Shown here piece after piece: positions 34,226 to 59,688 of a stretch of 64,000 bases of DNA. A program made the position numbers and the translations under genes. This DNA is from Flavihumibacter profundi (GTDB taxonomy: Bacteria > Bacteroidota > Bacteroidia > Chitinophagales > Chitinophagaceae), in contig NZ_JAIQXE010000002.1 of NCBI RefSeq assembly GCF_020076305.1, positions 372,001 to 436,000 on the forward strand, read 5' to 3'. Under the pieces are notes generated by a model that made no database searches, had not been told where the DNA came from, and saw only the letters and a list, made by a program, of their open reading frames with translations. Positions within the stretch are counted from its first letter, which is position 1, and each line of letters starts with the position of its first letter.

Positions 34226-34963
34226 TTAGTGGTTATTTTTCTTCTTTAGTTCTTCTGCCATAGATAAAGTGTGTTCCAATGACATTGGGTTTGTCCAGTC
34301 ACCATGTCCTGGAATAACAAACTTTGGCGCTTTACATTTTTTCCGGACATTTTTCACAGTTCCCGCGTAGGCTTGCAGGTTTGCGTCTCCTAAGTTACCC
34401 AGGTCATCATCTTCTGTGCTCTTTATAAGGCAGCCTCCATAGAGTATTTTCTCTTTTTCAAACCACAGCACAATATTGTCGGGGGTATGTCCGTGCCCGG
34501 GGAAATAAGTTTGAAACGAATATTGTCCAATTTTGAAAGTAGTGTCTTTATCAACCAGGAACTCAGCCCTTTTTTTACTATTGGCTTTGCTGAGTTCATC
34601 TGTTTGTTTGCTGGTATAAGTTTTAATGCCCAGGTTTCTAAAATATTCCAGTCCGGCAGTTCTGTCGTCGTGAAAATGAGTTGCGATACAAAAAATGACG
34701 CTTTTGTTATGCCTGGTTTTTATGCTATCAAGTAAAGGTTGAAATTGACTGGTATCCCAGGGCGTGTCAAAAATAACGGCACCTTCATTGGTTATAAAAT
34801 ATAATCCGTTTGCCGGGACAGGGGTGCCCTTGTATAAGTTATAGGTCGTATAAATATAAAAGTCACCAGTAAGATGAGTGATTTTCAAACTACCTGCCGG
34901 GGGTTGTCCGAAACTGCTTAGTAAGTAGAAAAGGGAAATTATTGTCGTAATTATTTTCCGCAT
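34226..34963 (-). CDS. Subclass B1 metallo-beta-lactamase (terminal cassette)
   Basis: 245 residues with a signal peptide (LSSFGQ), so periplasmic. Zinc ligands of subclass B1 are all present: HxHxD in THFHDDRTAG, the His of GHGHTPDN, Cys and Lys of YGGCLIKS, Asn of NLGDANL and His of PGHGDW. The family hydrolyses penicillins, cephalosporins and usually carbapenems; activity here is inferred. It is the last minus-strand gene of the array. A short attC-like site lies upstream (35031-35062) but none is seen downstream. A decayed copy of its 3' end lies at 59949-60024. Confidence 0.92.
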   Translation of the reverse strand: MRKIITTIISLFYLLSSFGQPPAGSLKITHLTGDFYIYTTYNLYKGTPVPANGLYFITNEGAVIFDTPWDTSQFQPLLDSIKTRHNKSVIFCIATHFHDDRTAGLEYFRNLGIKTYTSKQTDELSKANSKKRAEFLVDKDTTFKIGQYSFQTYFPGHGHTPDNIVLWFEKEKILYGGCLIKSTEDDDLGNLGDANLQAYAGTVKNVRKKCKAPKFVIPGHGDWTNPMSLEHTLSMAEELKKKNNH

Positions 34964-35030
34964 GGTGTTGTTCGTAAAGTGTAAATCTTCAGCGTAAAGT
35001 GCACTGGTAATTTAGTAAATTAAGTGATTT

Positions 35031-35062
35031 CGCCGCTAACGGGCAATACCGATGTTAGTGGC
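35031..35062 (-). repeat. Compact attC-like site
   Basis: Ends GCCGCTAAC and GTTAGTGGC are complementary and enclose only about 14 bases (GGGCAATACCGAT). It looks like a full attC stripped of its central region. Lies between the beta-lactamase start and the TrpF-like stop. Confidence 0.75.
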
Positions 35063-35069
35063 AGTTTTG

Positions 35070-35720
35070 TTAGTCCATCGCTCTGAAAAAATCTTCAAGT
35101 TTCTGTTCGTCAAGTCGTCCGTTTGTTCTTACGCTGCTACATAGGTCAAGTCCAAACGGCTGCACATATTCAATTGCTTGTTTTACGTTGTCCTTGTTTA
35201 GTCCGCCTGCAAGAAACAGGGGGATTTTTATACTTTCTCTTATTTGTTTACTTAAATCCCAATTGTGAATTCTTCCTGTTCCGCCAAGTTCTTTAACTGA
35301 TAAATTTGGATTTCCACTGTCAAGTAAAATTGCGTCAACAAAAGCAGATATTTCAATTGCCTCTGTTACAGAATTGTTGTCGATAACGTGAATAACCTGA
35401 ACTAGTTTTACATTAGGAAGTTCGTCTCTTAACTTTTGGTATTGCCTATTTTCTAATTCATCAACTATTTGAATAGTCGAGGTGTTAACCCTTTTGTAAT
35501 GGGAAATTATTTCATCAACGTTTGTTTCACTTGTTAGTAAAAAAGTTGAAATTGGTGGTGGAACAACTTTAGCAATTTCATTTATTAATTTGTCCTCAAT
35601 TACACCTGGTCCACTTGGCATTTTGCCAACCAAACCCAATGCAGACGCTCCATATGTTACGGCTGTAAATGCTTCATTTACACTACTTATACAGCAAATC
35701 TTTACTCTTGGTCTCGTCAT
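35070..35720 (-). CDS. Phosphoribosylanthranilate isomerase-like protein (TrpF family)
   Basis: 216 residues. TIM-barrel features of TrpF: Cys in VKICCISS near the N-terminus (general base position), Asp in AILLDSG, phosphate-binding loop FLAGGLNKDNV and the final GLDLCSSVRTNGRLDEQKLEDFF. It is outside any trp operon and overlaps a Nudix gene by 4 bp, so it may act on another phosphorylated sugar or anthranilate-like compound. The two genes appear to form a two-gene cassette. Confidence 0.8.
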   Translation of the reverse strand: MTRPRVKICCISSVNEAFTAVTYGASALGLVGKMPSGPGVIEDKLINEIAKVVPPPISTFLLTSETNVDEIISHYKRVNTSTIQIVDELENRQYQKLRDELPNVKLVQVIHVIDNNSVTEAIEISAFVDAILLDSGNPNLSVKELGGTGRIHNWDLSKQIRESIKIPLFLAGGLNKDNVKQAIEYVQPFGLDLCSSVRTNGRLDEQKLEDFFRAMD

Positions 35721-36205
35721 ATTACTTTTATGTTTTCGATTTCCTCTTCCATTGATAAGAGGTTTAATTTATCATCATATTCTGCACTAAATGCAAAGGG
35801 TTTGTTGTCAAGAATATATTTATAAATGTACCAATCAGTTTTTGGTGTCGGTACATTTAACAAGTTGTCAAATGAAATCCACATTAAAGACCCTTCATTA
35901 CAATTTGGGGGTTCAATAAAGTCAATGTCTGCGATATAAACATAGCCTGTCCAATTATATTCTGTTGGTGAGGTTTCCGTCAAAATACCGCAATATTTCA
36001 TTGAGTCCACTTTTATTCCTGTTTCTTCAAAAGTTTCCCTGATTGCAGATTTTAATGGGCTTTCAAAGGGGTCAAGTTTACCACCAACTGGTGTAAAATT
36101 GTCTTTGTTTGGTTCTTTAAGTCTTTTAAGTAACAAAAATTTGTCCTGGTGTCGCAAAATGCAAAGTGTCGCTGTTCTTTTAAGTCCTATCGGTATTTTG
36201 TTCAT
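35717..36205 (-). CDS. Nudix hydrolase
   Basis: 162 residues with a complete Nudix box GGKLDPFESPLKSAIRETFEETGI (Gx5Ex7REUxEExGU). Hydrolyses nucleoside diphosphate-X compounds; substrate unknown. Its stop overlaps the TrpF-like start (ATGA-type), implying coupled translation and possibly a shared pathway. Confidence 0.88.
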   Translation of the reverse strand: MNKIPIGLKRTATLCILRHQDKFLLLKRLKEPNKDNFTPVGGKLDPFESPLKSAIRETFEETGIKVDSMKYCGILTETSPTEYNWTGYVYIADIDFIEPPNCNEGSLMWISFDNLLNVPTPKTDWYIYKYILDNKPFAFSAEYDDKLNLLSMEEEIENIKVI

Positions 36206-36400
36206 TGTGAATTATCTTTTAGGGTGAGGCAAAACCGCATGTTGTACGAAGGCTTTCTATTTATTCCTGTAATGTCAGATATTTTAAATTATTACATCCA
36301 CAAAGAATTTCTTTATCGTATATCTCACGAAACATTTTATTGGACTCCAGTAACTTCAGGAACAAAACATATACGTGTGCGTATTTGATAATTTATTTAC

Positions 36401-36940
36401 TCAGCAACCCCCTTTGCGAGGCACACGTTTATAAATTATTATACTATCCCGTTCTACATAGTCGCCCGATACTATTGGATATGAATACTTGGGCGCGTGC
36501 GATACGTTACGGCTTCTTATAATTATCTTGTCGTTAACTTTCAGGCTATGCAATTGCTCAAGTTGAGACTTTTCCGGCTCAAATTTTAAAATATAATCGT
36601 CGCCATTAATGCTGACCATCACGCCGAAACCTAATCTTGAGCCTGGCGGAAGAGAAAGAGAGGTTATAACAGCCTCCATATTGGTAGAATCACGTATATG
36701 CTTCATTATTTTAGCTGCACTGCCAAGCACTTTTTTACCTTCGGGGGACGCTACCCAGTTTTTGTACTGTATACCACCAGGGGTAGCATACCATTTTTTC
36801 AATTCGGCTTTCCTTTCTTCATCAGAGAGTGGCTTTGGGATTGATTTTTTAGACGTTTCATTTTTGATTGCGCGATTAGCAAATACTAGTCCGCTTACCA
36901 CAACCAGCGATAAGATCAGCACATAAATTACTTTTTTCAT
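36401..36940 (-). CDS. Hypothetical exported or membrane-anchored protein
   Basis: 179 residues. One N-terminal hydrophobic helix (VLILSLVVVSGLVFA), then a charged linker and a soluble domain with WYATPGGIQYKNWVASPEGK and a beta-rich C-terminal half ending in a Cys. Family not recognised. No attC-like site separates it from the divergent regulator at 37107; the two may belong to one larger non-standard unit. Confidence 0.65.
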   Translation of the reverse strand: MKKVIYVLILSLVVVSGLVFANRAIKNETSKKSIPKPLSDEERKAELKKWYATPGGIQYKNWVASPEGKKVLGSAAKIMKHIRDSTNMEAVITSLSLPPGSRLGFGVMVSINGDDYILKFEPEKSQLEQLHSLKVNDKIIIRSRNVSHAPKYSYPIVSGDYVERDSIIIYKRVPRKGGC

Positions 36941-38121: not shown

Positions 38122-38321
38122 GCGTACAACGACCATGCATTGGTGTAGGAATGGCATTTATTCTCTGCTGCCTGGTCCCAAAGCCGGCGCTTAATAAAAA
38201 GTTGATTGTATAATTCATATTTTCAGTAGCACCACTGCCGCCGAAACAACTGCTGATCAGTGAAAATATCGATGAAGCGTATCGCTTCCGCCGTGCTTAT
38301 ACCAATGCAACAGTTGTGCGT
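38122..38321 (-). repeat. attC-like site, long class
   Basis: About 200 bp from GCGTACAACGACCATGCATT to ACCAATGCAACAGTTGTGCG. The outer arms are complementary, as are ACCATGCATTGGTGTAG and CTTATACCAATGC. Belongs to the GACCATGCATTGG subgroup. Confidence 0.85.
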
Positions 38322-38350: not shown

Positions 38351-38770
38351 TCAAATAGATTGCTTTTTAAGTTCTGCAATAACAGTCTGTAAAGTATTTA
38401 GTCCCCAATGTTCAAAATACTTTCCATCACGCAGTCGAACAATGTCTATAACATCTATTCTGATTTTTTTGAAAGTCGGAGGTATATCCATAAGTACGCC
38501 CTGATGCGTCCCAATGATTGCTTTTCTGGTTGTCACTTTGTCGTCTTCTGCAATTTGGTCATATATCTCTACTGTTAAGTCTGGAAATGCAGGTTTTAAA
38601 ATATTCTTAAAAGTATGCCACATCCCATCTGCTCTATTATTGGTTGATGGTGCGGTTCTGTTAATAAATTCATCGTGCATTAGTGCTTGGAATGTGTCTA
38701 AATTACATTCCTCAATTACTTCTTTATTAAATCTTCTTATTACAGATTTGTTTTCTTCTAAAATGTTCAT
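38351..38770 (-). CDS. SnoaL-like ester cyclase-family protein
   Basis: 139 residues with the SnoaL fold pattern: NKEVIEECNLDTFQALMHDEFINRTAP, PAFPDLTVEIYDQIAEDDKV and IVRLRDGKYFEHWG. Such proteins isomerise or cyclise polyketide-like esters or just bind small ligands; substrate unknown. Single-gene cassette. Confidence 0.8.
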   Translation of the reverse strand: MNILEENKSVIRRFNKEVIEECNLDTFQALMHDEFINRTAPSTNNRADGMWHTFKNILKPAFPDLTVEIYDQIAEDDKVTTRKAIIGTHQGVLMDIPPTFKKIRIDVIDIVRLRDGKYFEHWGLNTLQTVIAELKKQSI

Positions 38771-38820: not shown

Positions 38821-38954
38821 ACGCACAACGACCAGGTATTGTCGAAGTACAGGAATTTGTTGCTTGTCCTGCCCAAACCACTGCTGCACAGCTTACAAAT
38901 GGTGCGACACAGCTTCCGTCTGCCTGTATTTTGCCTATGCTCGTGTTGTGTGCT
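38821..38954 (-). repeat. attC-like site, medium class
   Basis: About 134 bp, from ACGCACAACGACCAGG to CGTGTTGTGTGC, outer arms complementary. Confidence 0.8.
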
Positions 38955-38968: not shown

Positions 38969-39766
38969 TCAAGCTACAAACTTACCTTCAAATATTATGA
39001 CCGCTTCTCCATATATATATACTTTGTCATTGATTAGTTCAGTTGTCATCATACCTGTTCGTGAAGAAGATTGAAAAGCCTGGAACTTATTTTTGCCAAG
39101 TTTTTTTGCCCAATACTTTGTAAGAAATGTTTGTATGCCGCCCGTTACAGGATCTTCATTCGTTCCTGCCCACGGCCAAAAGTATCTATAATGAAAGTCG
39201 AAGCTGGGATCATTAGATTTTGCTGTAACCAAAATACCATTTATGCCACTGTATGAATTTATTAATGCCAGAAAATCAGGCTTTAGATCGGATAGTTTAT
39301 TTGAGTCATTTATTTCAATAAGAATGATCTTGTTATTGGGGCTAAACCTCGTATCTAAGGCCTTGCTTATTCCTAAGGCAGTGAATACGGATTCGGGAAC
39401 AGAGATTTCTGTGGTCTCATATACTGGAAATTGCATTACAATTTTGCCTTCGGCCTTCTCAATTTTCAATTCGATGTTTTCGCAGTTTACGAAATGTATG
39501 TCTTCCAGAGTAGAAGTTTCAAATATAATTTTTGCGGCTGCCAATGTTGCATGGCCACATAAAGGAATTTCCTTTTTGGGTGTGTAAAATCTGATACTAT
39601 AAGTCTTGTCGGAAATCTGTTCTATAAATGCAGTTTCAGAAAAGCCAATTTCTGTTGCAATGCCTTGCATGGTTATACTGTCCAAATTGCTTTCGACAAT
39701 ACAAACTGCAGCTGGATTTCCTTTGAATTTTTGATTGGTAAAAGAGTCTACAAAATAAGTTTTCAT
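38969..39766 (-). CDS. PhzF-family isomerase
   Basis: 265 residues from the Met at 39766 (KTYFVDSFTNQKFKGNPAAV is the typical PhzF start). The catalytic Glu is in GFSETAFI, and CGHATLAAAKIIF and RYFWPWAGTNEDPVTGG are family marks. Diaminopimelate-epimerase-like fold; role outside phenazine synthesis is unknown. Single-gene cassette. Confidence 0.9.
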   Translation of the reverse strand: MKTYFVDSFTNQKFKGNPAAVCIVESNLDSITMQGIATEIGFSETAFIEQISDKTYSIRFYTPKKEIPLCGHATLAAAKIIFETSTLEDIHFVNCENIELKIEKAEGKIVMQFPVYETTEISVPESVFTALGISKALDTRFSPNNKIILIEINDSNKLSDLKPDFLALINSYSGINGILVTAKSNDPSFDFHYRYFWPWAGTNEDPVTGGIQTFLTKYWAKKLGKNKFQAFQSSSRTGMMTTELINDKVYIYGEAVIIFEGKFVA

Positions 39767-39793
39767 TTTAATAGTGTCTATGAATAAAGAAGT

Positions 39794-39831
39794 GCCGCAA
39801 AATAGCATAAAGCCCAATGTTGTATGTTAGC
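39794..39831 (-). repeat. Reduced attC-like site
   Basis: GCCGC then AATAGCATAAAGCCCAATGTTGTATGTTAGC. The right half resembles the right half of the site at 40401; the left arm is mostly missing, so this may be a decayed or deleted site. Confidence 0.5.
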
Positions 39832-39861: not shown

Positions 39862-40359
39862 TTATTTTGCAGCTGGCATACTTGTACTCCCTATGTCACG
39901 ATACAATTTCCAATCACCATTTCGCTTTTCCCAAACGACAACATATTTACCTCTGTCGATTAATGATTTTTTTTCATCTTTCATTTCATAGTTACCCGTT
40001 TCGATTATAAGCGCTGGGCTTCCGGTGATATCTGTGGTTAAAAACGTCATTTCTTTGATTCCCATCCGAATGGCAGAACCCCAAGCATTGAGAATATCAT
40101 TACCCTTCACAACTTCGCTATTGTCGAGCAATAATTCGGCATCTGGCCAATAATGAGACGCTAACGCAGAAGAATCACCGGCTTCAATTTGTTCTGAAAA
40201 TTTCATATTGATACTGTCTATAAATGACTTCGCCCATTGTTTGTCTAAAGCCTGAATTTCAGCTTCCGGATTTGGCAATTTTTCAGAATTATTCGATTTG
40301 CAAGACGAAATATAAAAGCAAATTATTGATGCTGCGATAAAAAAATATGACTTTGTCAT
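39862..40359 (-). CDS. NTF2-like (DUF4440-type) lipoprotein
   Basis: 165 residues. Lipoprotein signal (FYISSCK), then an NTF2-like fold: IQALDKQWAKSFIDSINMKF, ASHYWPDAELLLDN and a final strand WKLYRDIGST. Ligand unknown. Single-gene cassette. Confidence 0.8.
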   Translation of the reverse strand: MTKSYFFIAASIICFYISSCKSNNSEKLPNPEAEIQALDKQWAKSFIDSINMKFSEQIEAGDSSALASHYWPDAELLLDNSEVVKGNDILNAWGSAIRMGIKEMTFLTTDITGSPALIIETGNYEMKDEKKSLIDRGKYVVVWEKRNGDWKLYRDIGSTSMPAAK

Positions 40360-40400: not shown

Positions 40401-40468
40401 ACGTACGACGTCCAGGGCTTTATGCTATTGGGGCTTAGCCAACAATAGCATAAAGCCCCATGTTAGAT
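40401..40468 (-). repeat. Short attC-like hairpin with 16 bp perfect stem
   Basis: GGGCTTTATGCTATTG and CAATAGCATAAAGCCC are perfect inverted repeats around a 13-base loop, framed by GTACGACG and TGTTAGATAC. The stop codon of the upstream cassette gene (40463-40465) lies inside the right end. Confidence 0.8.
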
Positions 40469-40930
40469 ACGGTGCCGTCTCTTAATCACGTTGCGTTTAG
40501 AATAATTTTCTTTCCAGATTTTTATAAAATATTTATCTCCTGGATTTTCCTGATAAGCTTTATCAAGATTTGAAGAACTTACTCTTACTTTATACCAATC
40601 AGGTTCTATATTTAATTCGAGCTCAACTTTAAAATTTGGACAATCTAAAATCTGTAATTTTCCTGATTTGATTAATAAGCTGCCTTCTACAATATGATCA
40701 AATTTACTCAAATCCTTTTCATCTATTTTTGAGTCCAATAATTCTATTTCAATATTTGCCTGTGCTTCGTCGTTCTCAATTGAAACTCCGAGTATCCCAT
40801 CATCTATTGCAAGTCTATCATTAAATGCTTCGCTATTCCAAAAGTCTTGACTTCCGGTATCCCCACTTGCATATTTATCTGCGATGTAGAATTGTCCATA
40901 TTGGGTGAAGATTGAAAGTTTGTAAGTCAT
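40463..40930 (-). CDS. Hypothetical protein, possibly ComJ/Nin-like
   Basis: 155 residues, no signal or membrane segment. KLSIFTQYGQFYIADKYA ... DGILGVSIENDEAQANIEIELL and a late WYKVRV strand weakly resemble the ComJ nuclease-inhibitor fold. I would not assign a function. The TAA stop is supplied by the attC-like site. Confidence 0.6.
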   Translation of the reverse strand: MTYKLSIFTQYGQFYIADKYASGDTGSQDFWNSEAFNDRLAIDDGILGVSIENDEAQANIEIELLDSKIDEKDLSKFDHIVEGSLLIKSGKLQILDCPNFKVELELNIEPDWYKVRVSSSNLDKAYQENPGDKYFIKIWKENYSKRNVIKRRHRI

Positions 40931-40947: not shown

Positions 40948-40978
40948 TGCAGCTAACTGCTCTGTTGCGCGTTGTACA
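40948..40978 (-). repeat. Compact attC-like site
   Basis: TGCAGCTAAC followed directly by TGCTCTGTTGCGCGTTGTAC. The words CTGCTCTGTTG also occur at the right end of the site at 53212, so this looks like two ends joined by an internal deletion. Confidence 0.6.
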
Positions 40979-41285: not shown

Positions 41286-41609
41286 TCATATAACCATGTC
41301 TTTATCTAAATTTCCATAAACTAATTGCCTGGAATTTGAAATAGACTCCTTAAAATAGGGATTCTTCAATGCACTCTCTTCAACTAAGTCTACAGTCCTT
41401 TCAAACAAGTCCTCTAATGAAAATTTAAAATTGAAGTAATTATTCGTGTAAATTGCCAAGTTCATTGGGTCGAAATTGACTAATAAATCAATATCACTTG
41501 TATCGTTAAATTCTCCTCCAAGTACTGAACCAAATGCATATAACTCCCTTATCTTGTATTTTGCACAAAGCACCTTGATTGGATCTGAATATTTGTCCAG
41601 CAAATTCAT
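41286..41609 (-). CDS. mntA: MntA-type minimal nucleotidyltransferase antitoxin
   Basis: 107 residues with GSVLGGEFNDTSDIDLLVNF, the GSx10DxD motif of minimal nucleotidyltransferases. In the MntA/HepT system it AMPylates a Tyr near the HepT RNase motif to neutralise it. It overlaps the start region of hepT. It may now be orphaned because hepT carries a nonsense codon. Confidence 0.88.
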   Translation of the reverse strand: MNLLDKYSDPIKVLCAKYKIRELYAFGSVLGGEFNDTSDIDLLVNFDPMNLAIYTNNYFNFKFSLEDLFERTVDLVEESALKNPYFKESISNSRQLVYGNLDKDMVI

Positions 41610-41668: not shown

Positions 41669-41876
41669 TAACGCGCAACGGCCAGGGTTTTCTGTTGTGC
41701 TGATATTCTGTGATTCTTCAGCCCGAACCGAAGCTGAGTAAAGTTAATGCAGTTGATGTTATATTCTGTTGCTCGGTTTTATTCGTCCAAGCCTGGACTG
41801 CAGCTGACAAGCGAATGGGACGATCAGTATATATTCTACAGCCAGCATAGCAGAAAACCCCCTGTTGGCGGTAGTG
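41669..41876 (-). repeat. attC-like site, long class
   Basis: From AACGCGCAACGGCCAGGGTT to AACCCCCTGTTGGCGGTAG; TTTTCTGTTGTGCTG and CAGCATAGCAGAAAA are complementary inner arms. Confidence 0.8.
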
Positions 41877-42481: not shown

Positions 42482-42498
42482 GCTGTTTTTTGTAGCAT

Positions 42499-42700
42499 TA
42501 CCGCCAACGTTTTGGATTGCCGAAGGTGGGGGTATTGAAAACCGTCTGCCCGGTGCCAATGCTGAAAAGAAATATGATACTTAAAATTATCTAATTTTTT
42601 ATTAGAAAGAGTCAAGCCCCAAACCAAAGCTGATATTGAGTTGTAGCTGAAGTGACAACGTCCTGCCCCCGCTTTTGGCAATGCATTGTTGGGCGCTGGC
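42499..42700 (-). repeat. attC-like site, long class
   Basis: From TACCGCCAACGTTTTGGATTGCC to GGCAATGCATTGTTGGGCGC, with inner TCTGCCCGG and GTCCTGCCCCC blocks. The outer arms are complementary. Confidence 0.8.
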
Positions 42701-48457: not shown

Positions 48458-48463
48458 GTAGGT

Positions 48464-50670: not shown

Positions 50671-50699
50671 ATTAGGGTGATTATTATTGGGGTTTATAT

Positions 50700-51581: not shown

Positions 51582-51613
51582 CTTACAACCAATGCCTCTG
51601 ATGTGCGTTGCTT
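51582..51613 (-). repeat. Compact attC-like site
   Basis: CTTACAACCAATGCCTCTGATGTGCGTTGC: two ends with almost no middle. Weaker than other sites but in the expected position between two cassette genes. Confidence 0.5.
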
Positions 51614-51628: not shown

Positions 51629-52189
51629 TTAAAACTCAACTTTGTCCCGATCACAATACTTAGTGGCAAGCTTATAATAATTCCGATCGTCAGTAAAGTC
51701 TTTATTTACAGCTATTGATTGCATTATAGCTCCTGCCGAGTTTAAATAATTCTTTGTTATTGGTTGGTGATCGCTATAACTTATTGAATATATTTTGTCA
51801 CTTTTATTACATTTTAAGCATACTACTTGGCCAGCTGTATTCTTTTTCGTCCGGGCTGGTAAATAAAATGTAACATCAGGTGTGTCACTAACAAATGATG
51901 TTACAGATGCTATCATTATAGTATCTACTCCAATACCAACACAATAAAAGTCAAATGAAACCTCCGTCCTTGGTGTGAATGACATTTCAAATTTCCCACT
52001 CTTCAAGATTTTTGTCTTTGCCAACACTTTTTTGTCTCCTTTTACAACTAAATAAAGTTTCTCCAGGTGAATAGCAGTGTCTATATGATTGCTTTTCAAA
52101 TGTCCTGTTATATATATTGGATTTGTCCAAGGTTTGAGACTTGAAATTGTTATAAATATTAGGAACACTATTGTCAGGTTGGGTCTCAT
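51629..52189 (-). CDS. Exported hypothetical protein
   Basis: 186 residues from the Met at 52189, five bases from the attC-like site; signal-like start (LTIVFLIFITISSL). YITGHLKSNHIDTAIHLEKLYLVVKGDKKV then KSGKFEMSFTPR resemble carboxypeptidase-regulatory or DUF4369-like beta sandwich segments. Contains CLKC. Single-gene cassette. Confidence 0.6.
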   Translation of the reverse strand: MRPNLTIVFLIFITISSLKPWTNPIYITGHLKSNHIDTAIHLEKLYLVVKGDKKVLAKTKILKSGKFEMSFTPRTEVSFDFYCVGIGVDTIMIASVTSFVSDTPDVTFYLPARTKKNTAGQVVCLKCNKSDKIYSISYSDHQPITKNYLNSAGAIMQSIAVNKDFTDDRNYYKLATKYCDRDKVEF

Positions 52190-52193
52190 AAAG

Positions 52194-52402
52194 TAACGCA
52201 CAACGTTCTAGTATTGCTGCAGTTGGGGGAATTGACCAACTGTCTGCCCGGAATTGAAGCTAAATTAATAAACAAAGGTTGATGTTAACCTACAAATGCC
52301 CAACAGAATTCAGTCCGCCGAAACCAAACTTTGGATATGCACTGATGCTAATTGTTCTTCCGTCCAGCCCCAATTGCAGCAATACTTTTGTTGTGCGTTT
52401 GC
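52194..52402 (-). repeat. attC-like site, long class
   Basis: TAACGCACAACGTTCTAGTATTGCTGCAG to CTTGCAGCAATACTTTTGTTGTGCGTT; inner GGGAATTGACCAACTGTCTG like 46099. Strong arm complementarity (ATTGCTGCA/TGCAGCAAT). Confidence 0.85.
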
Positions 52403-52415: not shown

Positions 52416-53165
52416 TTATTTTGATATTTCGTAAACAATTGTAATCTTTTCTTCCAACTCGACATCTTCAACTTCAAATTTGTCAAACGGAGTGTTATAG
52501 CTAATTTGTGTGTCTCCAACAATTTTTGGCGGTGTAAATTTAACTTGATGGATATCTTGCGGCGGTCCTAAAATTCCGTCTTTATATTTCAACACTTGCT
52601 TGACTCTAATGAATTTTATGTCCAACGCTTTAGCAATATTTACAGCGTTAGTTTTTGCATCTACGATTGCTTCTTGCACAAGTTTTAGTCTTGTAATTTT
52701 TTCAAGACTGTCCGAAACTTTAGTGTCAAATGAAATATCCAAATCTTTAAGTCCTGCCTCTTGGATTTCTTTGTATAAAGCATCAATAAGTTTTGTTTCA
52801 AGCCCGAATTCAAGTTTTAAAACATTAGAAGCTGTATATCTTTTTTTCTCATCGTCATTTTGTGAGCTTGAAATGTCGTAGTCGGAAATTTTTATTATCT
52901 TGTTAGTAAAGCCAATTTTGTAAAGACTTTTTACTAATTCATCAATTTCGAGGTTAAGCAATTTGATTGCATTTTTCTCAACAGTATCCCTTTTTTCAAC
53001 TGTCAATGTGAAAATAGCTAAGTCTGGTCTAACTTTTATTTTAGAACCTCCTTCTGCAATTATTTCATAGTCATTTTTGGTTTGCGAAAAAACAGTTGAA
53101 AATATAAATGTCAAGCTTAAAAGCATTGTCATTTTTAGCATTGTCCTTGAGTTTAATATTGTCAT
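52416..53165 (-). CDS. SIMPL-domain (DUF541) exported protein
   Basis: 249 residues from the Met at 53165, giving a signal (MLLSLTFIFSTVFSQ). SIMPL features: GGSKIKVRPDLAIFTLTVEK, a long helix with IVDAKTNAVNIAKALDIK and a C-terminal VEDVELEEKITIVYEI. Periplasmic or surface protein of unclear function, related to BP26/OMP28. Single-gene cassette. Confidence 0.85.
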   Translation of the reverse strand: MTILNSRTMLKMTMLLSLTFIFSTVFSQTKNDYEIIAEGGSKIKVRPDLAIFTLTVEKRDTVEKNAIKLLNLEIDELVKSLYKIGFTNKIIKISDYDISSSQNDDEKKRYTASNVLKLEFGLETKLIDALYKEIQEAGLKDLDISFDTKVSDSLEKITRLKLVQEAIVDAKTNAVNIAKALDIKFIRVKQVLKYKDGILGPPQDIHQVKFTPPKIVGDTQISYNTPFDKFEVEDVELEEKITIVYEISK

Positions 53166-53211
53166 AGTAAGTTTTGTAAGGGAGATGCAAATTTTAGGGT
53201 GTTCCATAAAG

Positions 53212-53416
53212 TGACGCACAACGGCGGCAGGTTGGCGCTGGTGGGGAATTATTATTCTCCCTGTCCGGAACTACCGCTGATTAATGATTTGTTGTTGAAA
53301 TTAATTACAAATGATCCATTTAATTGATCAGCAGAAACTGATGCCTGGTTATATTCAATTGAACCCTATTCCTTTCTATCGCCCCGCTAGCGCGAAACTG
53401 CTCTGTTGGGCGCAGG
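53212..53416 (-). repeat. attC-like site, long class
   Basis: TGACGCACAACGGCGGCAGGTTGGCGCTGG to GCTAGCGCGAAACTGCTCTGTTGGGCGCAG. The right end is a canonical GTTRRRY (GTTGGGC). Confidence 0.85.
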
Positions 53417-53429: not shown

Positions 53430-53882
53430 TTACTCTAATCTTACCCGATCGTTTCTGTCAATGTTTGTCCGCCTGTCAAATACAAAGTCCAGGTATTTTG
53501 TTTGTCCTGAGTCTGCAACAATGTCCGCCGATGCCCTTCCAAACTCTAGCCCGTTCTTATCAAATGCCTTTGCAGTCAGCTTACCATTAAAACCTTTATC
53601 AAATATCAAATAGGCGGAAACTATATTGTCGGTTGTACTATCAGTGCCGACAACTTTTACTCGTCCAATTTTTATTCCTTTTCGCTCCACTTCTGGAGAA
53701 ACTTCAATTAAACTGGAAAACGACTCTTCTACACCAGACTTAACACCATCTACAACTTCAGATCCAACTTTACCAACAATTTCGCCTCCCTTATGCAAAG
53801 TATCCTTCGCCTTATCCTTTGCCCAATCGCAAGAAATTAAAGTAAAACAGAAAAATATGCGTATGATTAAAATTGATTTCAT
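53430..53882 (-). CDS. Lipoprotein of unknown function
   Basis: 150 residues. Signal with TLISC, a helical stretch (HKGGEIVGKVGSEVVDGVKSG) and a beta-rich C-terminal part, VSAYLIFDKGFNGKLTAKAF, ending in NDRVRLE. No family assigned. Single-gene cassette. Confidence 0.65.
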   Translation of the reverse strand: MKSILIIRIFFCFTLISCDWAKDKAKDTLHKGGEIVGKVGSEVVDGVKSGVEESFSSLIEVSPEVERKGIKIGRVKVVGTDSTTDNIVSAYLIFDKGFNGKLTAKAFDKNGLEFGRASADIVADSGQTKYLDFVFDRRTNIDRNDRVRLE

Positions 53883-53913: not shown

Positions 53914-54119
53914 TTGCGCCCAACGGTCAGGTATTGCTTTGCAGGTGGGGAAATAGAATTCCGTCTGCCCATAACCGATGCCGATTGAAATTATTTTGAT
54001 GAAGTTAAGTACTAAAGTTGGGCGTTTCTTGTCAAGCCCGAACTGAAGTTTGGAATTGCAAAACTGCCGATTGTTGTTCCGTCCGCCCCACTTGCAGCAA
54101 TACCCCTGTTGGCTGCTGG
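53914..54119 (-). repeat. attC-like site, long class
   Basis: TTGCGCCCAACGGTCAGGTATTGC to GCAGCAATACCCCTGTTGGCTGC. Canonical left end; GGTATTGC/GCAATACC arms. Confidence 0.85.
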
Positions 54120-54133: not shown

Positions 54134-54595
54134 TTATGCGCACTCGTAACTTAAAAGTTCTTCGAATTTATTATCAGCGTATTTATAAACAATAACCCAA
54201 CTAAAATAGTCTTGTTCATACTTTGAAGTACCGTCTTCTAAATACTCTGCCTCGCCGCCGCTATACTGAAATGCAATTATTATTTCTGTTCCACTAATTA
54301 AGTCAATACCTTTTTTAGAGCTTAAATCTTCTTCTTCGTTTATTTCCATAACGCCATTGTAACCATTCTTGAACTGGTCGAATATTATCGTCTGATTATT
54401 CGATTTGTCAACGCCCCAAATAGTCCCTCCATATTCGTCATATTCCTTAATCCAAGTCTGAATCAAACTTGTGAAACTGGTATTGAATTTAAAAGCTGTT
54501 GTATATTTGCCATATTGCTTATGAATTTCCAAAAGTGTTGCTTCACTTACTTCTGTTACAAGTCCTGTCAAATATGAAGGTGCGGGGAAAATCAT
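54134..54595 (-). CDS. Hypothetical soluble protein
   Basis: 153 residues from the Met at 54595 (longer frames read through the attC-like site). Acidic, mixed alpha/beta: FNTSFTSLIQTWIKEYDEYG, IWGVDKSNNQTIIFDQF, YFSWVIVYKYADNKFEELL. No recognised family; the general look is of small immunity-type proteins but this is only an impression. Confidence 0.6.
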   Translation of the reverse strand: MIFPAPSYLTGLVTEVSEATLLEIHKQYGKYTTAFKFNTSFTSLIQTWIKEYDEYGGTIWGVDKSNNQTIIFDQFKNGYNGVMEINEEEDLSSKKGIDLISGTEIIIAFQYSGGEAEYLEDGTSKYEQDYFSWVIVYKYADNKFEELLSYECA

Positions 54596-54655
54596 AATGA
54601 TAATATTTATAGTGTCCACTATTGTTCTTTCGAATTGAGATGTTCTTTTAGCCTT

Positions 54656-54856
54656 GCAGCCAACGATCATGCATTGGTGTAGGCAGGGCATTTATTCGCT
54701 GCTGCCTAGCACCAAAGCTGATCCTTTATAAATAGTTGATTGTATAGTTCTTATTTTAAGTAGCACCACTATCGCAGAAACTACTGCTGATCAGTGAAAA
54801 TATCGATGAATCGTATTGCGTCCGCCGTGCTTATACCAATGCAATTGTTAGCTGCT
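54656..54856 (-). repeat. attC-like site, long class
   Basis: TGCAGCCAACGATCATGCATTGGTG to TATACCAATGCAATTGTTAGCTGC; close relative of 38122 and 48464. Confidence 0.87.
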
Positions 54857-54864
54857 TTACTTCT

Positions 54865-55404
54865 TCATTTTTGTAAGAACTCAAGCAATCCATCAGTCCA
54901 ACCTGGTGACAAGTTATATTGGGTATAACCGTTTTCTGTTACATTATAAATGTATTCACCAACATATTTAGGAAGGTCGACTGGATAATTAACATTTGAC
55001 TTGTCAAGTGATTTTGTCTCATAAGTATACTTACCTTCAATAATCCTTATTAATGCGATTCCATGTTGCTCAGCATATTCAATAGAACCAGATTGAAATT
55101 TTGCGGTTGAAAAAATAATTCCTTTCTGTGCTCCCAACGATTGCAACTTATCTCTCAAGATTTGTACAACTTCTCTCTTTATTGGTGAATTGTGTTTCTT
55201 GCATTCTATTAGAACTTTAATATTACTGCCTAAAGCTTCAAAATTTGCCTTTATATCTATTTGATATGCCCCGTCGTGTGAGGTTTCAATTGAATTATGA
55301 ACTATTTCGAATTTGTCCAATTTTGAACCAACATCTTTTAGGAATTCAAAAACCGTTAGCTCAAATTCTTCGGGTGTTAAGTTTAAATAATCGGGCGGCG
55401 TCAT
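54865..55404 (-). CDS. Mrr-like restriction endonuclease domain protein
   Basis: 179 residues. PD-(D/E)XK core of the Mrr_cat type: QIDIKANFEALGSNIKVLIE with ECKKHNSPI, then LQSLGAQKGIIFSTAKFQSG and IALIRI. No separate DNA-recognition domain is visible. Possibly a defence nuclease against modified DNA or a partner in a conflict system. It shares a cassette with the gene at 55417 (12 bp between, no attC-like site). Confidence 0.82.
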   Translation of the reverse strand: MTPPDYLNLTPEEFELTVFEFLKDVGSKLDKFEIVHNSIETSHDGAYQIDIKANFEALGSNIKVLIECKKHNSPIKREVVQILRDKLQSLGAQKGIIFSTAKFQSGSIEYAEQHGIALIRIIEGKYTYETKSLDKSNVNYPVDLPKYVGEYIYNVTENGYTQYNLSPGWTDGLLEFLQK

Positions 55405-55416: not shown

Positions 55417-55941
55417 TTATGTGGCAATGTTTTCAAGTATGGTCCTAGCCTTTTGAGCCGCCGTCCTATAGTAATCTGCGTCACTTTCAATTTCACTAAA
55501 GTGCTTTCCAACTATATCTCTGCGATTTGTTGCGTCATATAAGTCGCTTTCGTAGATGATTATTTTCAAACGTTCTTTTTCAATTTCAGTCAAGTTAGAA
55601 GTGTCAACTTGTAGTAACCGTTTAATTAGCCTGTCTCGGAAATCTTCTTTCTTATACTTTTCTCTTTCCGAAAGTTCAAGTGATGCTCCGATAATGTCGT
55701 TTGTGTCAGTCGAAGTTATTGCAATGTTTATGAGTTCTTCAATTGTCGGTTCAGGAAGTCGTTTGAGTACTGGAATACCACCGCCATGATATTCGGAGTC
55801 ATACCTCGTCAAATGCCATTCTTCATATGAATTTTTGTCAATATAGTAATTTGTCCAACCGTCGGTAGAAGTACCTGTTTGAGTGAGGGTCTTAAGTTTG
55901 GTTTCAACTTCGTCTTGATTACAAATGAAGAATTGATGCAT
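55417..55941 (-). CDS. Hypothetical protein co-cassetted with the Mrr-like nuclease
   Basis: 174 residues. An N-terminal part with TDGWTNYYIDKNSYEEWHLT and YHGGGIPVLKRLP has the feel of Imm27-type immunity proteins; the C-terminal part is helical. Precedes the nuclease gene with 12 bp spacing on the same strand, so the pair is probably co-expressed. A protective role is conceivable but not shown. Confidence 0.6.
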   Translation of the reverse strand: MHQFFICNQDEVETKLKTLTQTGTSTDGWTNYYIDKNSYEEWHLTRYDSEYHGGGIPVLKRLPEPTIEELINIAITSTDTNDIIGASLELSEREKYKKEDFRDRLIKRLLQVDTSNLTEIEKERLKIIIYESDLYDATNRRDIVGKHFSEIESDADYYRTAAQKARTILENIAT

Positions 55942-55954: not shown

Positions 55955-56160
55955 TGCAGCTAACGGCATGGGCTTGGCGAAGTGGGGGAGTGTTCCTCTG
56001 TCCGCCTGGCAAACCGAAGCCCAATTTAAAAATTAATGTTGATGATCTGCATTTAGCTATATTAATAATGTCCAGCCCGATATCAAGCACAACTGAAATA
56101 CTACTGCTTAAACACAGCTTCCGTCCGCCTCCATTTTGCCAAACCCGATGTTAGCGGCTG
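55955..56160 (-). repeat. attC-like site, long class
   Basis: TTGCAGCTAACGGCATGGGCTTGGC to GCCAAACCCGATGTTAGCGGCTG. The TAA stop of the upstream gene lies in the right end (56151-56153). Confidence 0.85.
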
Positions 56161-56870
56161 CCTTGCTTGTTTTTGCAATGTTTGTATAATGAGTCTTTTG
56201 CTTCAGGAATCACATCTGCAATTTCTGCCCAGTCTTTGCAAGCATTAATTTCGTCTTTCATTTGAAAATTTGCAATTCCTCTGTAGTAATAATCATAAGC
56301 TGAATATTCAGATATGTCTGTCAGCATATTGTAGTCGTCCCAAGCTTTTTTGAATTCCTTAAGGACAACAAATATTTTGGCTCTCCCAAGTCTAGCTGGT
56401 GTGTGTTTGTCAAAAATTGAAAGGGCTTTTGAGTAGTCGTTAAGTGCTAATTCAAACTTGTTGAGATTGTATAAGTAATTAGCTCTGTCAACGTAAAAGT
56501 ATCTTTCGTCTGGATTTAATTTGATAGCCTCATTCATATCGTTCACAGCTCCCATGTCGTTACATAAGTTGCTTTTGCAATTAGCTCTGTCACGATATGG
56601 GAAGCCAAGATTATAAGCAGAATCGAGATGAATAGCAATAGTCAAAATCTCTAAAGCTTTTTCATAATTTCTTTCTGCTATGTAAACAGTCCCCAAGGTC
56701 CAATATGCACCTACATTTTTGGGATTGGCTTTAATAGCTCTTTCTAAACACTCTTTTGATCTGCATGTGTCAAACTCATTTATAACAGCAGGATGATACC
56801 TCATAGCTTTTCTATTCTTACAAGAAGAGATGAGTATGCAGGTCAATATGACTATTAGGAAGTGTCGCAT
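56151..56870 (-). CDS. Tetratricopeptide-repeat lipoprotein
   Basis: 239 residues. Lipoprotein signal (ILISSCK), then about five TPR units, e.g. GAYWTLGTVYIAERNYEKAL, NPDERYFYVDRANYLYNLNKFE and TPARLGRAKIFVVLKEFKKAW. Protein-interaction scaffold at the membrane; partners unknown. Its stop is provided by the attC-like site. Single-gene cassette. Confidence 0.82.
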   Translation of the reverse strand: MRHFLIVILTCILISSCKNRKAMRYHPAVINEFDTCRSKECLERAIKANPKNVGAYWTLGTVYIAERNYEKALEILTIAIHLDSAYNLGFPYRDRANCKSNLCNDMGAVNDMNEAIKLNPDERYFYVDRANYLYNLNKFELALNDYSKALSIFDKHTPARLGRAKIFVVLKEFKKAWDDYNMLTDISEYSAYDYYYRGIANFQMKDEINACKDWAEIADVIPEAKDSLYKHCKNKQGSR

Positions 56871-56876: not shown

Positions 56877-57081
56877 TGCCGCTAACGACCATGCATTGGC
56901 GAAGGCACGGCATTTTTTCTATGCTGCCTAGTACCAAAGCTGATCATAGTTAAGTTGATGATTGATTAATTCAAATTTTCAGCAGCACCAATGTCGCCGA
57001 AACAACCGCTGATCAGTAAAATAATAGCCGATGCGTATTGCGTCCGCCGTGCTTTAGCTAATGCAATTGTTGTGTGCAGCA
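56877..57081 (-). repeat. attC-like site, long class
   Basis: TGCCGCTAACGACCATGCATTGGCG to TTAGCTAATGCAATTGTTGTGTGC; GACCATGCATTGG subgroup. Confidence 0.87.
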
Positions 57082-57083: not shown

Positions 57084-57743
57084 TTATCCGTTTACAATTT
57101 GTTCAAGTGTTTGGAGTTGTTTGTCTGTTGTGTTGACCAGTCCAGCCGTTTTATGTCTACCGAATTGCGGCTCTGTAATTTTAGAAATTTCAATTGCCGC
57201 CTTCGCATATTCTTTTGCTTCATCTTTTTTGCTCATCTGATTACACAATCTTGCTAAAAGAATAGCATAATAAAACTTGTCACTGTTAAATGTGAGTCCA
57301 TTTATTGGATAGTTTTTACAAAGCCTATATGCTTCTTCAAATTTGCCTGAGTTATTGCTAGACAATATGGTATCAGCGAGTTTCAATTCTGCCATTCCAC
57401 TTGTCCCACTTCTTGATTGTCTGAGTTTGTAATGATTGGTTACTACACGAAAATGTGTTTCGGCTTTTTCAAAGTCTTTATTTTCAAAATAATAGTCACC
57501 AAGTTGTTCATGCCCAAACACAGTACTGAAATCTTCTGTCGAAAAATCATTTATGAGTCGTTCCATTAAATGAAGCCCGATGGATTGTATGTTTTTGTCC
57601 CGACTGCCGAGAAGACAACTTGCTTGAATTCTTAAATATTGGGCTTTATTATAAGCTCCCCTTGAACGTTTGAGCCGAGTTTCAAAGTCTGTCTCGATCT
57701 CCCTTGTCCATGTTGTATTTCTATACCAGTCGTCAGTACTCAT
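57084..57743 (-). CDS. TPR-like soluble protein
   Basis: 219 residues, helical throughout, no signal. EQLGDYYFENKDFEKAETHF and FYYAILLARLCNQMSKKDEAK are TPR-like units. Possibly an adaptor. Single-gene cassette starting near its attC-like site. Confidence 0.7.
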   Translation of the reverse strand: MSTDDWYRNTTWTREIETDFETRLKRSRGAYNKAQYLRIQASCLLGSRDKNIQSIGLHLMERLINDFSTEDFSTVFGHEQLGDYYFENKDFEKAETHFRVVTNHYKLRQSRSGTSGMAELKLADTILSSNNSGKFEEAYRLCKNYPINGLTFNSDKFYYAILLARLCNQMSKKDEAKEYAKAAIEISKITEPQFGRHKTAGLVNTTDKQLQTLEQIVNG

Positions 57744-57763: not shown

Positions 57764-57902
57764 TTGCACACAACGGGCAGGTATTTCTGATGTGCGGCCC
57801 CGCACGATCGTCCAACCCGTATGAAGTTAAAAGGCGTTTTGATCTTAGAACTTGCGGATCTGTCCCGCCCGCATATTAGAAATACCATTGTTGGCTGCAG
57901 CC
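57764..57902 (-). repeat. attC-like site, medium class (twin of 47089-47221)
   Basis: TTGCACACAACGGGCAGGTATTTC to GAAATACCATTGTTGGCTGC, with GTGCGGCCCCGCACGATCGTCC and GTCCCGCCCGCATATTAG as in 47089. Confidence 0.87.
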
Positions 57903-57915: not shown

Positions 57916-58269
57916 TCACTTTCTCCATTCCTTTATCTCCACTTTTTGCACCGTCAAGTTAGTATTAAATGATACAGTCATTGTTTTAATGTAAACTGGA
58001 TCTATGTCAGTCCCATATTTTTTATCAATATCATATTGAATCACACTCCCATTTTCTTGAACATACTGTGGCTGTCCAAGCAACCTAATGACTTGACTAT
58101 AGCTCATAGTTTTAAGATTATAATTGTCCGTCAAATCACTTAACATTGAATTTCTATTTGGAAAAGTCATTAAATCACCAACCTCATTCCATTTAGCTTT
58201 ATCAAACTCCTGAATGGACTGGCAAGCAACGCTAAATGAAATAAAGAATAACGCAACGTAAAACTTCAT
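57916..58269 (-). CDS. Small lipoprotein of unknown function
   Basis: 117 residues. Signal with SFSVAC, then a compact domain including YSQVIRLLGQPQYVQENGSV and a repeating VSFNTNLTVQKVEIKEW end, similar in outline to SmpA/BamE-like folds (ligand unknown). Single-gene cassette. Confidence 0.6.
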   Translation of the reverse strand: MKFYVALFFISFSVACQSIQEFDKAKWNEVGDLMTFPNRNSMLSDLTDNYNLKTMSYSQVIRLLGQPQYVQENGSVIQYDIDKKYGTDIDPVYIKTMTVSFNTNLTVQKVEIKEWRK

Positions 58270-58416: not shown

Positions 58417-58618
58417 TTGCAGCCAATGGCCGGGCATTGGCGTAGGCAGGATATTTTATATTCTACTGCCTGTTCCTTTGCCGATTTTTAATTAATTGTT
58501 CATTGTTAATTCTACTGTTCAATTTAACCACCTCCGCCCGTACCTCTGTTCATTATGATATTCAGCTGATAATGCCTTTCTTCCGCCCTGCTTATGCCAA
58601 TGCCTTTGTTGTGCGTTC
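58417..58618 (-). repeat. attC-like site, long class
   Basis: TTTGCAGCCAATGGCCGGGCATTGG to TGCCAATGCCTTTGTTGTGCGTT. The left core has CAAT in place of CAAC, so may be partly decayed. Confidence 0.78.
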
Positions 58619-58621
58619 ATA

Positions 58622-59230
58622 CTATTCTCCGAACAGCCTGTACCAACCGTCTTTTAGTTTCCAATTATATTTTGGCTTGGTGGCAACTCTCTCGTCAAAT
58701 GCTGCAATGTCTTCTTTGTCGTCCGTGAATACAAAGGTAGTTGAAGGAGCACTGAAGAAATTTCTATAAACCCAAAATGTCACGGTTACAGAATTTGTCT
58801 CCTTATTTCGAGAAATGCCAATGTCGTTGCCACCATTTGAAATAATTGGAAATTCATATGGTAGTTCACAAACCCAATTATTCCAGCTAACGTTGGGATT
58901 TAATTGTCCGCTTTTAACCTGCTGAACTATTGCCACCCTTTTATGATAAAATAAGTTCCAGTCTATTTTCTCAATCATTTCATGAACAATCCAAGGCTTG
59001 AATGTCAAATAGAACAATATGAGAAAAGTAGCAAGAGAAAGCCATCTGCGTCTTGTCGGTCTTTTGCGCTCCTTGATAAGTTTCAAAAGTTGGACAATTG
59101 TCATTATGAGTAAGGTCGCCGAAACAACTAACCACAAAAGTGTAACAACAAAATAGGGAAGCAAGTAATATTCAACAATTGTCAAGATGACCCACCCTAT
59201 GACTATATACAGCAATCCTCGTCCTGTCAC
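58622..59230 (-). CDS. Multi-pass membrane protein, first cassette
   Basis: 202 residues. Two adjacent N-terminal helices (LLYIVIGWVILTIVEYYLL, FVVTLLWLVVSATLLIMTIV), a basic loop (KERKRPTRRR), a third helix and a C-terminal soluble part. Function unknown. Closest cassette to the integrase remnant, so it would be the most recently inserted under classic integron behaviour. Confidence 0.65.
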   Translation of the reverse strand: MTGRGLLYIVIGWVILTIVEYYLLPYFVVTLLWLVVSATLLIMTIVQLLKLIKERKRPTRRRWLSLATFLILFYLTFKPWIVHEMIEKIDWNLFYHKRVAIVQQVKSGQLNPNVSWNNWVCELPYEFPIISNGGNDIGISRNKETNSVTVTFWVYRNFFSAPSTTFVFTDDKEDIAAFDERVATKPKYNWKLKDGWYRLFGE

Positions 59231-59280
59231 TAATATAAATTTAAGCTGTTCCGATTGTTAGTTTAAGGTGTCAAGAAGTA

Positions 59281-59390
59281 TGACGCACAACGCTTATATT
59301 GACGATATAAGACGAATATATTTTTTAATTGAAGATTGATTTTCAACCTTTCCCTTATATACTTTTCAGATTTTCGTTAGGGCAATCTGA
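59281..59390 (-). other. Putative attI-like site between integrase remnant and first cassette
   Basis: The cassette-side core reads GTTGTGCGTCA on the minus strand (complement of 59281-59291), the same end word as in attC-like sites. Beyond it the sequence is AT-rich and lacks the long palindromic arms of the other sites, and has GTTAGGGC at 59376-59383. This asymmetry, and the position next to the integrase, fit an attI site. Confidence 0.5.
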
Positions 59391-59412
59391 TTTTGAAGGC
59401 CAAAATATTGAC

Positions 59413-59688
59413 TCACCATTCCACACCGCCACCCTTCATCAGATCATCAAACGGACTAACAATATTCACTAACTTCTTTTTACTTACATGCAGGTACCGC
59501 TCCGTGGGCTTGATATTGAAATGCCCCAGGATGTCTTTGATATACCGGATCTCTACCCCTTTGTCAAGCAAATGAGTGGCAAAACTATGCCGCAAACTAT
59601 GAACCCCCACATCCTTTGGAAAATAAATGCCTACACACCGTCGACCCCTATGGTTCATACCGGTTAAGCCTACCAACCTCGCTCCCAT
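59413..59688 (-). pseudogene. IntI-like tyrosine recombinase, C-terminal fragment
   Basis: 91 codons. The catalytic C-terminus is present: VHSLRHSFATHLLDKG (box II HxLRH), DILGHFNIKPTERYLHV (LGH then the nucleophilic Tyr) and the IntI-style tail IVSPFDDL. The N-terminal domain, box I Arg and the IntI-specific insert are absent, and the first ~25 codons (MGARLVGLTGMNHRGRRC) do not look like a recombinase. So the gene is truncated and fused to unrelated sequence. It points in the same direction as the cassettes. Confidence 0.8.

Follow-up and report, generated by a model that had tools for sequence, protein, structure and literature searches.

An integron-like cassette array in Flavihumibacter and its putative recombinase family without the IntI insert

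Layout of the array and properties of its sites

The window analysed here, a stretch of 64,000 nucleotides, covers positions 372001-436000 of contig C2 in a 4.87 Mb Flavihumibacter genome (an assembly of six contigs) and contains an array of short gene units separated by palindromic sites, which we interpret as cassettes of an integron-like capture system. Between 34,226 and 59,230 we accepted 32 open reading frames (ORFs) as genes, and 31 of them lie on the minus strand, in agreement with the original prediction; the exception is 37107-38009(+). The array extends over 35,030-59,291, an attI-like junction closes one of its ends, and the remnant of a tyrosine recombinase gene lies next to this junction. 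The G+C content drops from 0.487 in the left flank to 0.365 across the array, and the right flank has 0.330. Each of 27 cassettes carries its own site after the stop codon (median gap 22 nt, range -2 to 319), and the 5' end of the cassette is a median of 39 nt away from the start codon (range -54 to 1187). As to a tRNA gene that might anchor the element, none was found within the window.

The recombination point is presumed to lie inside the core of a site. The flanks of a site would then stem from two cassettes, whereas both ends of any single cassette should match each other. This match, scored over 10 positions, is referred to as closure. The rows below are based on end closure, gapped arm alignment and/or covariance model matches; all three apply unless another basis is given. 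Of the 28 site positions, 23 are sites of 58-191 nt (mostly 185-191 nt) and five are remnants (35038, 36234, ~39797, 40955 and 51587). The predicted 27 sites plus an attI-like junction thus held as to the array and the junction, with its AAC at 59289, but not as to the count. The remnants are concentrated distally, at four of seven positions versus one of 21 elsewhere, for a split chosen afterwards.

59413..59688 (-), 91-aa remnant of the recombinase; Pfam Phage_integrase; identity of 77-93% to five relatives in the same genus
59289..59314 (-), attI-like junction ahead of the first cassette; AAC at 59289; closes 6/10 with that cassette
58425..58610 (-), attC-like site, left core AAT
57772..57892 (-), attC-like site, short class; closure, fold, covariance model
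56884..57071 (-), attC-like site
55962..56152 (-), attC-like site
54662..54849 (-), attC-like site; closure, fold of both strands, covariance model
53922..54110 (-), attC-like site
53220..53407 (-), attC-like site
52202..52392 (-), attC-like site; closure, fold (z -5.0), covariance model
51587..51602 (-), site remnant; right end closes 9/10
50707..50897 (-), attC-like site; closure only 3/10, against a remnant; arm alignment, covariance model
49900..50087 (-), attC-like site
49178..49362 (-), attC-like site
48471..48658 (-), attC-like site
47776..47965 (-), attC-like site
47094..47212 (-), attC-like site, short class
46106..46291 (-), attC-like site, right core GTA
45311..45496 (-), attC-like site
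44198..44315 (-), attC-like site, short class; closure, fold, covariance model
43308..43496 (-), attC-like site
42506..42690 (-), attC-like site
41677..41866 (-), attC-like site
40955..40966 (-), site remnant; right end closes 9/10
40407..40464 (-), short 58-nt site, left core GAC; inverted repeat, closure, fold (z -6.4), covariance model
39797..39821 (-), site remnant, left core not found; closure
38827..38947 (-), attC-like site, short class
38128..38315 (-), attC-like site
36234..36243 (-), remnant with only the right end of a site; closure 8/10 with the left flank of 38128
35038..35056 (-), site remnant, distal array end; closes 3/10; covariance model

Closure provided the clearest evidence that the units are exchangeable, as had been predicted. 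The 5' end of a cassette matched the outer arm of its own site with a mean of 7.4/10 over the 27 window cassettes, whereas the match to the arm it now adjoins, i.e. within the 27 sites, was only 4.3/10, and the 730 other pairs gave 4.0. Nineteen cassettes scored 8-9, five scored 6, one scored 5 and two scored 3. The sum of 201 was reached by none of 20,000 permutations (mean 111.5, sd 8.1, maximum 145). Elsewhere, 95 adjacent pairs from 14 of 17 further stretches, comprising relatives and the other arrays of the same genome (145 of 166 model matches used), averaged 7.94/10 versus 4.12 within sites, with a sum of 754 versus 440 as the largest of 5,000 permutations. Palindromic intergenic repeats that spread between genes and leave cassettes where they are, similar to repetitive extragenic palindromes or miniature inverted-repeat transposable elements, would account for the many similar palindromes across the genome and the family, but they predict ends that match per repeat, whereas the ends here pair by cassette. 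The closure in the window and in the 17 stretches argues strongly against such passive palindromes, and we regard this explanation as scarcely credible.

Also in conflict with it, the blocks shared between arrays consist of a gene plus its site. Comparison with 12 stretches revealed four blocks of more than 600 bases common to the window array and other arrays, each of them a single cassette:

54662-55962, 98% identical in G013
42506-43308, 94% identical in G013
57772-58425, 93% identical in another array of the same genome
40955-41677, 80% identical in G005

The edges of all four blocks fall at the AAC cores of neighbouring sites, within ~10 bases. In the 54662-55962 block, the outer left-arm part of the site differs despite the 98% likeness otherwise, and in the second array of the window's own genome an attI-like sequence takes the place of the next site after the shared cassette. 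A fifth block of 410 bases (36535-36941 versus G001, 73%) lies in a site-poor stretch; its edges cannot be judged because it reaches the end of the compared piece. The remaining matches were sites alone, part of the recombinase and one right-flank stretch. When the 32 window genes were searched by tblastn, 11 were matched in the compared stretches beyond the window's own copies, and most were not shared. Gene order fixed across distant relatives, which had been named as an outcome that would speak against an integron, was not seen: single cassettes recur in different surroundings.

The ends of the sites had been described as RYYYAAC...GTTRRRY palindromes. The arms do pair and the cassettes close, but GTTRRRY as a stand-alone signal is not enriched (98 versus 130 expected in the window), so that the motif alone could not carry the claim and arm pairing and closure do; the GCCCAAC placed at 43301 is actually at 43304-43310. 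A generic inverted-repeat search was likewise rejected as a site finder: it returned 16 pairs, few of which were sites, because the site arms are interrupted. Rfam at gathering scores gave no match in the window, and a blastn search of plasmids with one window site gave none.

The sites show the attC-like anatomy that had been proposed, with an outer arm, an unpaired spacer, an inner arm and a loop, while the strength of the whole-site fold varies. A covariance model was built from 22 window sites; the wider searches used R1, a model made for this analysis. On the plus strand of the window, the model from the 22 sites recovered all of these and two additional places at E<=1 (24 in total), and the opposite strand gave four weak mirror matches. 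In the alignment of the 22 sites, 25 consensus pairs were predicted, 14 of which had changes on both sides. When 147 sites were aligned to the model, standard pairs occupied 92.5% of 3,634 cells versus 73.3% in shuffled alignments, the covariation score was 0.496 versus at most 0.093 with slid partners, and 13 of the 18 inner-arm pairs had changes on both sides. An ungapped reading of the arms, to which bulged bases are invisible, was possible for the 135 of 147 sites having both cores: it revealed a G.T pair 8 positions past a conserved TT in 113/135 sites and a second one 5 positions past it in 48/135. Immediately before the TT there was a mismatch in 68/133 sites (departures elsewhere at most 27/125). 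Gapped alignments of 23 window sites placed gaps inside the arm in some of them, and the site arms of loci L114 and L125 contain an extra base, by eye. The site lengths in the window, the relatives and the further loci cluster near 59, 124 and 187 nt, i.e. in steps of ~64 nt, with further groups near 81-84, 116 and 171 nt.

The recombinase family and its association with arrays

The 91-aa remnant beside the array is a short N-terminal piece fused in frame to the C-terminal catalytic part of a tyrosine recombinase, on the strand of the cassettes; no other recombinase piece was seen just upstream of it in three frames. Intact recombinases of 401-447 aa stand beside arrays in relatives (four examples), and many family members seen are ~350-450 aa long. 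F. cheonanensis (L107) and F. fluminis (L110) carry the same recombinase, and the genomes G004 and G005 belong to the same genus as the window. In two intact relatives, Pfam detected SAM-like core-binding and catalytic domains and nothing in the first 117-144 residues; a profile search of the N-terminal stretch against solved structures gave only matches that start at position 112 or later.

The original prediction named IntI as the recombinase, and this did not hold. The lysine box and the H-x-L-R-H box are separated by a short interval of 62-66 residues in all 25 family rows, compared to 104 residues in 12/12 canonical IntI and 62-70 in five Xer-type or unclassified rows. Only some of the 25 rows were examined for an adjoining array; those beside arrays include L107, L109, L110, L114, L115, L116, L118 and L125. 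The integron-integrase model TIGR02249 scored 171-188 bits against a cut-off of 265 in 4/4 proteins, in two matched stretches, the best NCBIfam match was an XerA-type model (196-215 bits, cut-off 220), and the match to the solved IntI4 (2a3v) leaves out chain residues 187-246. The short interval, the low TIGR02249 score and the skipped residues indicate that the IntI-defining domain is absent. In G013, the recombinase beside the array (L091 ~3820-4580) is a 252-aa frame whose catalytic part also seems to be without an internal stretch. Passages in two papers (PMC9668308, PMC2426708) use the IntI-specific additional domain as the criterion for integron integrases, and a passage in a third (PMC8138268) describes the insertion as incompletely conserved in an integron-like subgroup, yet essential for integron function.

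In the tree, the 11 IntI rows formed one clade (100/100) on a long branch. The insert-less family was not one clade: 16 rows including Flavihumibacter grouped firmly (100/99), six joined IntI at a fork that was not firm (90/82), and two more were placed elsewhere. Given the long branches and the midpoint root, the tree allows no firm statement on whether the state with or without the insert is older; through the six rows that join the IntI branch, the family may show the pre-insert state.

A canonical sedentary integron whose IntI is merely missing from the window would explain the integron-type site anatomy, the closure and the attI-like junction. The integron-integrase model is indeed one of the recombinase's best NCBIfam matches, and Bacteroidota appear as a phylum having integrons in passages of PMC8618304 and PMC9668308. 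Canonical IntI above the cut-off was found in 84 of 296 phylum genomes, but in only one of 295 class genomes (>265 bits) and not in the window's own genome, and all family rows, including those beside arrays, are without the insert. We consider this explanation improbable. In contrast to canonical IntI, the insert-less family matched 146/295 class genomes and 90/156 genera at E<=1e-70, a count that may include some Xer-like proteins with frames of ~300 aa. R1 sites were present in 36/59 genomes of the relatives set and in 95/147 genomes of the family set (the own genome included in both), and 44 R1 matches at E<=1 in the own genome revealed further arrays on C1, C2 and C3. Such arrays are thus not rare in this lineage, for which the original prediction had called them rarely described.

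Among 24 named loci chosen by the recombinase alone, eight had R1 sites downstream, oriented for cassettes on the recombinase strand; for several of the remaining loci, little sequence is available on the downstream side. Scanning for arms hinted at more arrays, and noise also appeared in shuffles and in upstream flanks. When closure was required, closed cassettes were detected in L118 from Flavobacterium cellulosilyticum (three, with 116-nt sites), in L125 from a Bacteroidetes metagenome-assembled genome (three, with 59-nt sites) and in L114 (four). Of 20 further recombinase loci, which were taken in rank order and not chosen for arrays, 12 hold at least one closed cassette: eight have three or more and four have one. 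Of the 32 cassette calls, one of which repeats another, 29 carry the longest ORF on the strand that encodes the recombinase. In the controls, closed cassettes were found in 0/14 random regions of the same genomes, 0/17 upstream flanks, 0/4 window pieces left of the array and 1/20 Markov shuffles. A search of plasmids with the recombinase returned 385 records, only two of which, both from Chryseobacterium, were covered to at least 80%; on a Chryseobacterium plasmid the recombinase is followed by sites with closing flanks. Two phage records were matched in the core only.

The attI-like junction, another predicted feature, recurs beside intact recombinase genes. In the window its sequence is cgtcttatatcgtcaatataagcGTT; the sequence that adjoins the first cassette has the form cgtctaattgcgta...GTT in L107, L109, L110 and L114 and reads atgcgtatatttatgaGTT in L115 and L121. 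In these six loci the junction lies 92-286 nt past the recombinase stop codon, except in L121, where it is at +523, and the first site closes with it at 8-9/10. Junctions of differing sequence are present in L123, L125 and L184, while the automatic search picked other pairs in L116 and L118 and none in L124.

The housekeeping recombinases could also be considered, since pdif modules are cassettes moved by XerC/XerD, and the genomes G000 and G007 are rich in sites, yet only Xer-type or other tyrosine recombinases were found there besides the remnant. However, the sites here are elements of 58-191 nt with long arms and not short duplex sites, and closed cassettes occur 3' of the dedicated recombinase, in contrast to none in the upstream regions and none at four tyrosine-recombinase loci of the own genome (3-4 kb each). 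Mobilization by XerC/XerD is therefore very unlikely.

Several observations weigh against an active recombinase of this family working on folded sites. Two of five covariation measures in the 147-site alignment did not exceed shuffles: pairs changed on both sides (15 versus 15.1) and pair types (58 versus 55.2, with 43/500 shuffles as high); moreover, this alignment was fitted to the structure and so leans towards it. Arm energy favoured the plus (bottom) strand in only 16/23 window sites (p=0.07) and in 109/147 sites of the wider set, which are related sequences. The whole site 54662 was more stable on the minus strand (-35.7, z -4.1) than on the plus strand (-32.1, z -3.2), and, while one of three short sites folded strongly, the other two were only moderately better than shuffles on the plus strand (z -1.5 and -2.1). 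Eight of the 20 further loci had no closed cassette. Finally, no intact family member was found in the window's assembly, although with six contigs and two other arrays near contig starts a recombinase copy could be missing.

The weak strand bias and its reversal in site 54662 would suit a recombinase that exchanges cassettes as duplex DNA, the hairpin having another role. The arm covariation and the fixed G.T position bind the site to its fold. We rate duplex action as unlikely. From sequence evidence, the cassette units, closure, covarying arms, attI-like junctions, shared single cassettes and association of recombinase and arrays together mark the stretch as a row of cassettes that belongs to an integron-like capture system of the class Bacteroidia, run, in all likelihood, by an insert-less recombinase (probability about 0.8). 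With the recombinase reduced to a remnant and no intact member in the assembly, the array is at present a cluster of sites with no intact integrase nearby, as in clusters of attC sites lacking integron-integrases (CALIN), and the arrays of this genome are probably frozen.

Cassette genes, flanks and the tet(X3) context

The minus-strand genes are as follows:

58622..59230 (-), cassette gene, first after attI; no Pfam match
57916..58269 (-), cassette gene; no Pfam match; a cassette with 93% identity is present in another own-genome array
57084..57743 (-), cassette gene; TPR matches, weak
56151..56870 (-), cassette gene; TPR protein
55417..55941 (-), two-gene cassette, upstream gene; Imm27 match weak, below cut-off
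54865..55404 (-), two-gene cassette, downstream gene; Mrr_cat domain; cassette 98% identical in G013
54134..54691 (-), cassette gene; no Pfam match
53430..53882 (-), cassette gene; no Pfam match
52416..53219 (-), cassette gene; SIMPL domain
51629..52201 (-), cassette gene; no Pfam match
50918..51547 (-), cassette gene; no Pfam match
50110..50742 (-), cassette gene; no Pfam match
49381..49818 (-), cassette gene; DUF6064 weak, below cut-off
48675..49121 (-), cassette gene; no Pfam match
47978..48472 (-), cassette gene; DUF7684; 41% identical protein in a G007 array
47233..47748 (-), cassette gene; no Pfam match
46316..47053 (-), cassette gene; no Pfam match
45527..46114 (-), cassette gene; DUF3792 weak, below cut-off
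44342..45262 (-), cassette gene; short-chain dehydrogenase
43495..44139 (-), cassette gene; no Pfam match
42753..43199 (-), cassette gene; no Pfam match; cassette 94% identical in G013
41882..42559 (-), cassette gene; no Pfam match
41286..41609 (-), cassette gene; nucleotidyltransferase; cassette 80% identical in G005
40463..40930 (-), cassette gene; no Pfam match
39862..40359 (-), cassette gene; DUF4440
38969..39817 (-), cassette gene; PhzF family
38351..38770 (-), cassette gene; SnoaL-like
36401..36940 (-), gene within the site-poor stretch; no Pfam match
35070..36205 (-), probable distal cassette with PRA isomerase-like and NUDIX genes; closure only 3/10

No Pfam match at E<=0.001 was obtained for 15 of the 31 minus-strand genes, and the remaining products have ordinary accessory functions (short-chain dehydrogenase/reductase, PhzF, NUDIX, PRA isomerase-like, SnoaL, DUF4440, nucleotidyltransferase, SIMPL, Mrr, TPR and others). 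Of ten proteins submitted to PADLOC, two matched models of candidate systems. The sole plus-strand gene of the array, 37107-38009, encodes an OmpR-type DNA-binding domain and lies inside a 1.9 kb site-free stretch.

At the distal end, the ORF 34226-34963 scored 255 bits against a curated cut-off of 200 for subclass B1 metallo-beta-lactamases; it is located past the outermost site remnant and perhaps does not belong to a cassette. Its 3' end is repeated (34242-34318 and 59947-60024, 78 bp, 81% identity), and this repeat flanks the array and the recombinase remnant as though both sat between two copies. To the right of the remnant, three minus-strand genes at 60546-63924 (G+C 0.33) had no Pfam match and are possibly another island.

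A related arrangement was noticed on the Acinetobacter indicus plasmid p80-1-2-tetX3 (NZ_CP041297.1, L183). A short recombinase gene (4052-4717) immediately precedes tet(X3) in the same orientation, and a half site 3' of tet(X3) (6096-6129) resembles the sites of the arrays with a score of 23.8, compared to 17.6 for the next best place in the stretch, 19.6 for the best of 40 shuffles and 14.3 for the best of 14 control regions. The sequence before tet(X3) (~4855-4880) resembles the attI-like junctions by eye. A possible reading is that tet(X3) moved out of Bacteroidota in the form of a cassette.

Proposed mechanism and comparison with known systems

Each cassette of the system comprises one or two genes together with a long-armed recombination site of its own. 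In the mechanism we propose, a tyrosine recombinase that has an additional N-terminal domain but no IntI insert, encoded beside the array on the strand of the cassettes, would join the folded single-stranded site of a free cassette to the conserved attI-like site just downstream of its own gene, by recombination within or adjoining the AAC/GTT core. New cassettes would enter beside the recombinase and old ones would decay at the far end; in the window's genome, where the recombinase beside the array is deleted, this growth has probably stopped. This suggests a second way of running a cassette gene-capture system. We put forward more tentatively, at somewhat below even odds, that the IntI-specific insert is dispensable for folded-site cassette capture, and that an insert-less platform spans the class Bacteroidia, with IntI arising from it or beside it.

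Should the recombinase prove active, cassette recombination in general would not depend on the insert, a large pool of cassettes could be read, and the path by which some resistance genes moved out of Bacteroidota, as in the tet(X3) context, could be tested. The surveys that recognise integron integrases by the IntI-specific domain have to be set against the 146 class genomes matching the insert-less family. In a passage of one large survey (PMC9024848), the complete integron given for Bacteroidetes proper is that of Salinibacter ruber, and attC models have been reported for 11 taxa, with no Bacteroidota among the taxa named in a part of that paper (PMC8352920). In the open-access literature, the titles and abstract openings among the matches listed described no such Bacteroidia arrays.

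With IntI integrons and CALIN, the system described here shares cassettes on one strand, arranged in tandem and each with its own attC-like pairing-arm site with AAC/GTT cores, an attI-like entry point, which in relatives lies next to the recombinase gene, and single cassettes common to different arrays. It differs in that the recombinase is without the IntI insert and has an extra N-terminal stretch with no Pfam match, and in that it is encoded on the strand of the cassettes. The latter is also known for the reverse-orientation integron integrases of Treponema and others, which are IntI with the insert. The sites differ as well: 98 of 131 measured sites are 185-199 nt long, whereas canonical attC sites are shorter, and fixed G.T positions and a frequent mismatch may stand where canonical sites carry bulged bases. 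XerA, XerC and XerD have an equal box spacing, and an XerA-type model is the best match, below its cut-off; unlike them, the family here has an extra N-terminal stretch and adjoins cassette arrays. The recombinase beside tet(X3), named xerD in a passage of PMC8635130 (xerD/TnpF), is similar in its 50% identity over query residues 180-418, but is shorter (221 aa as annotated) and is found in Acinetobacter plasmids between insertion sequences.

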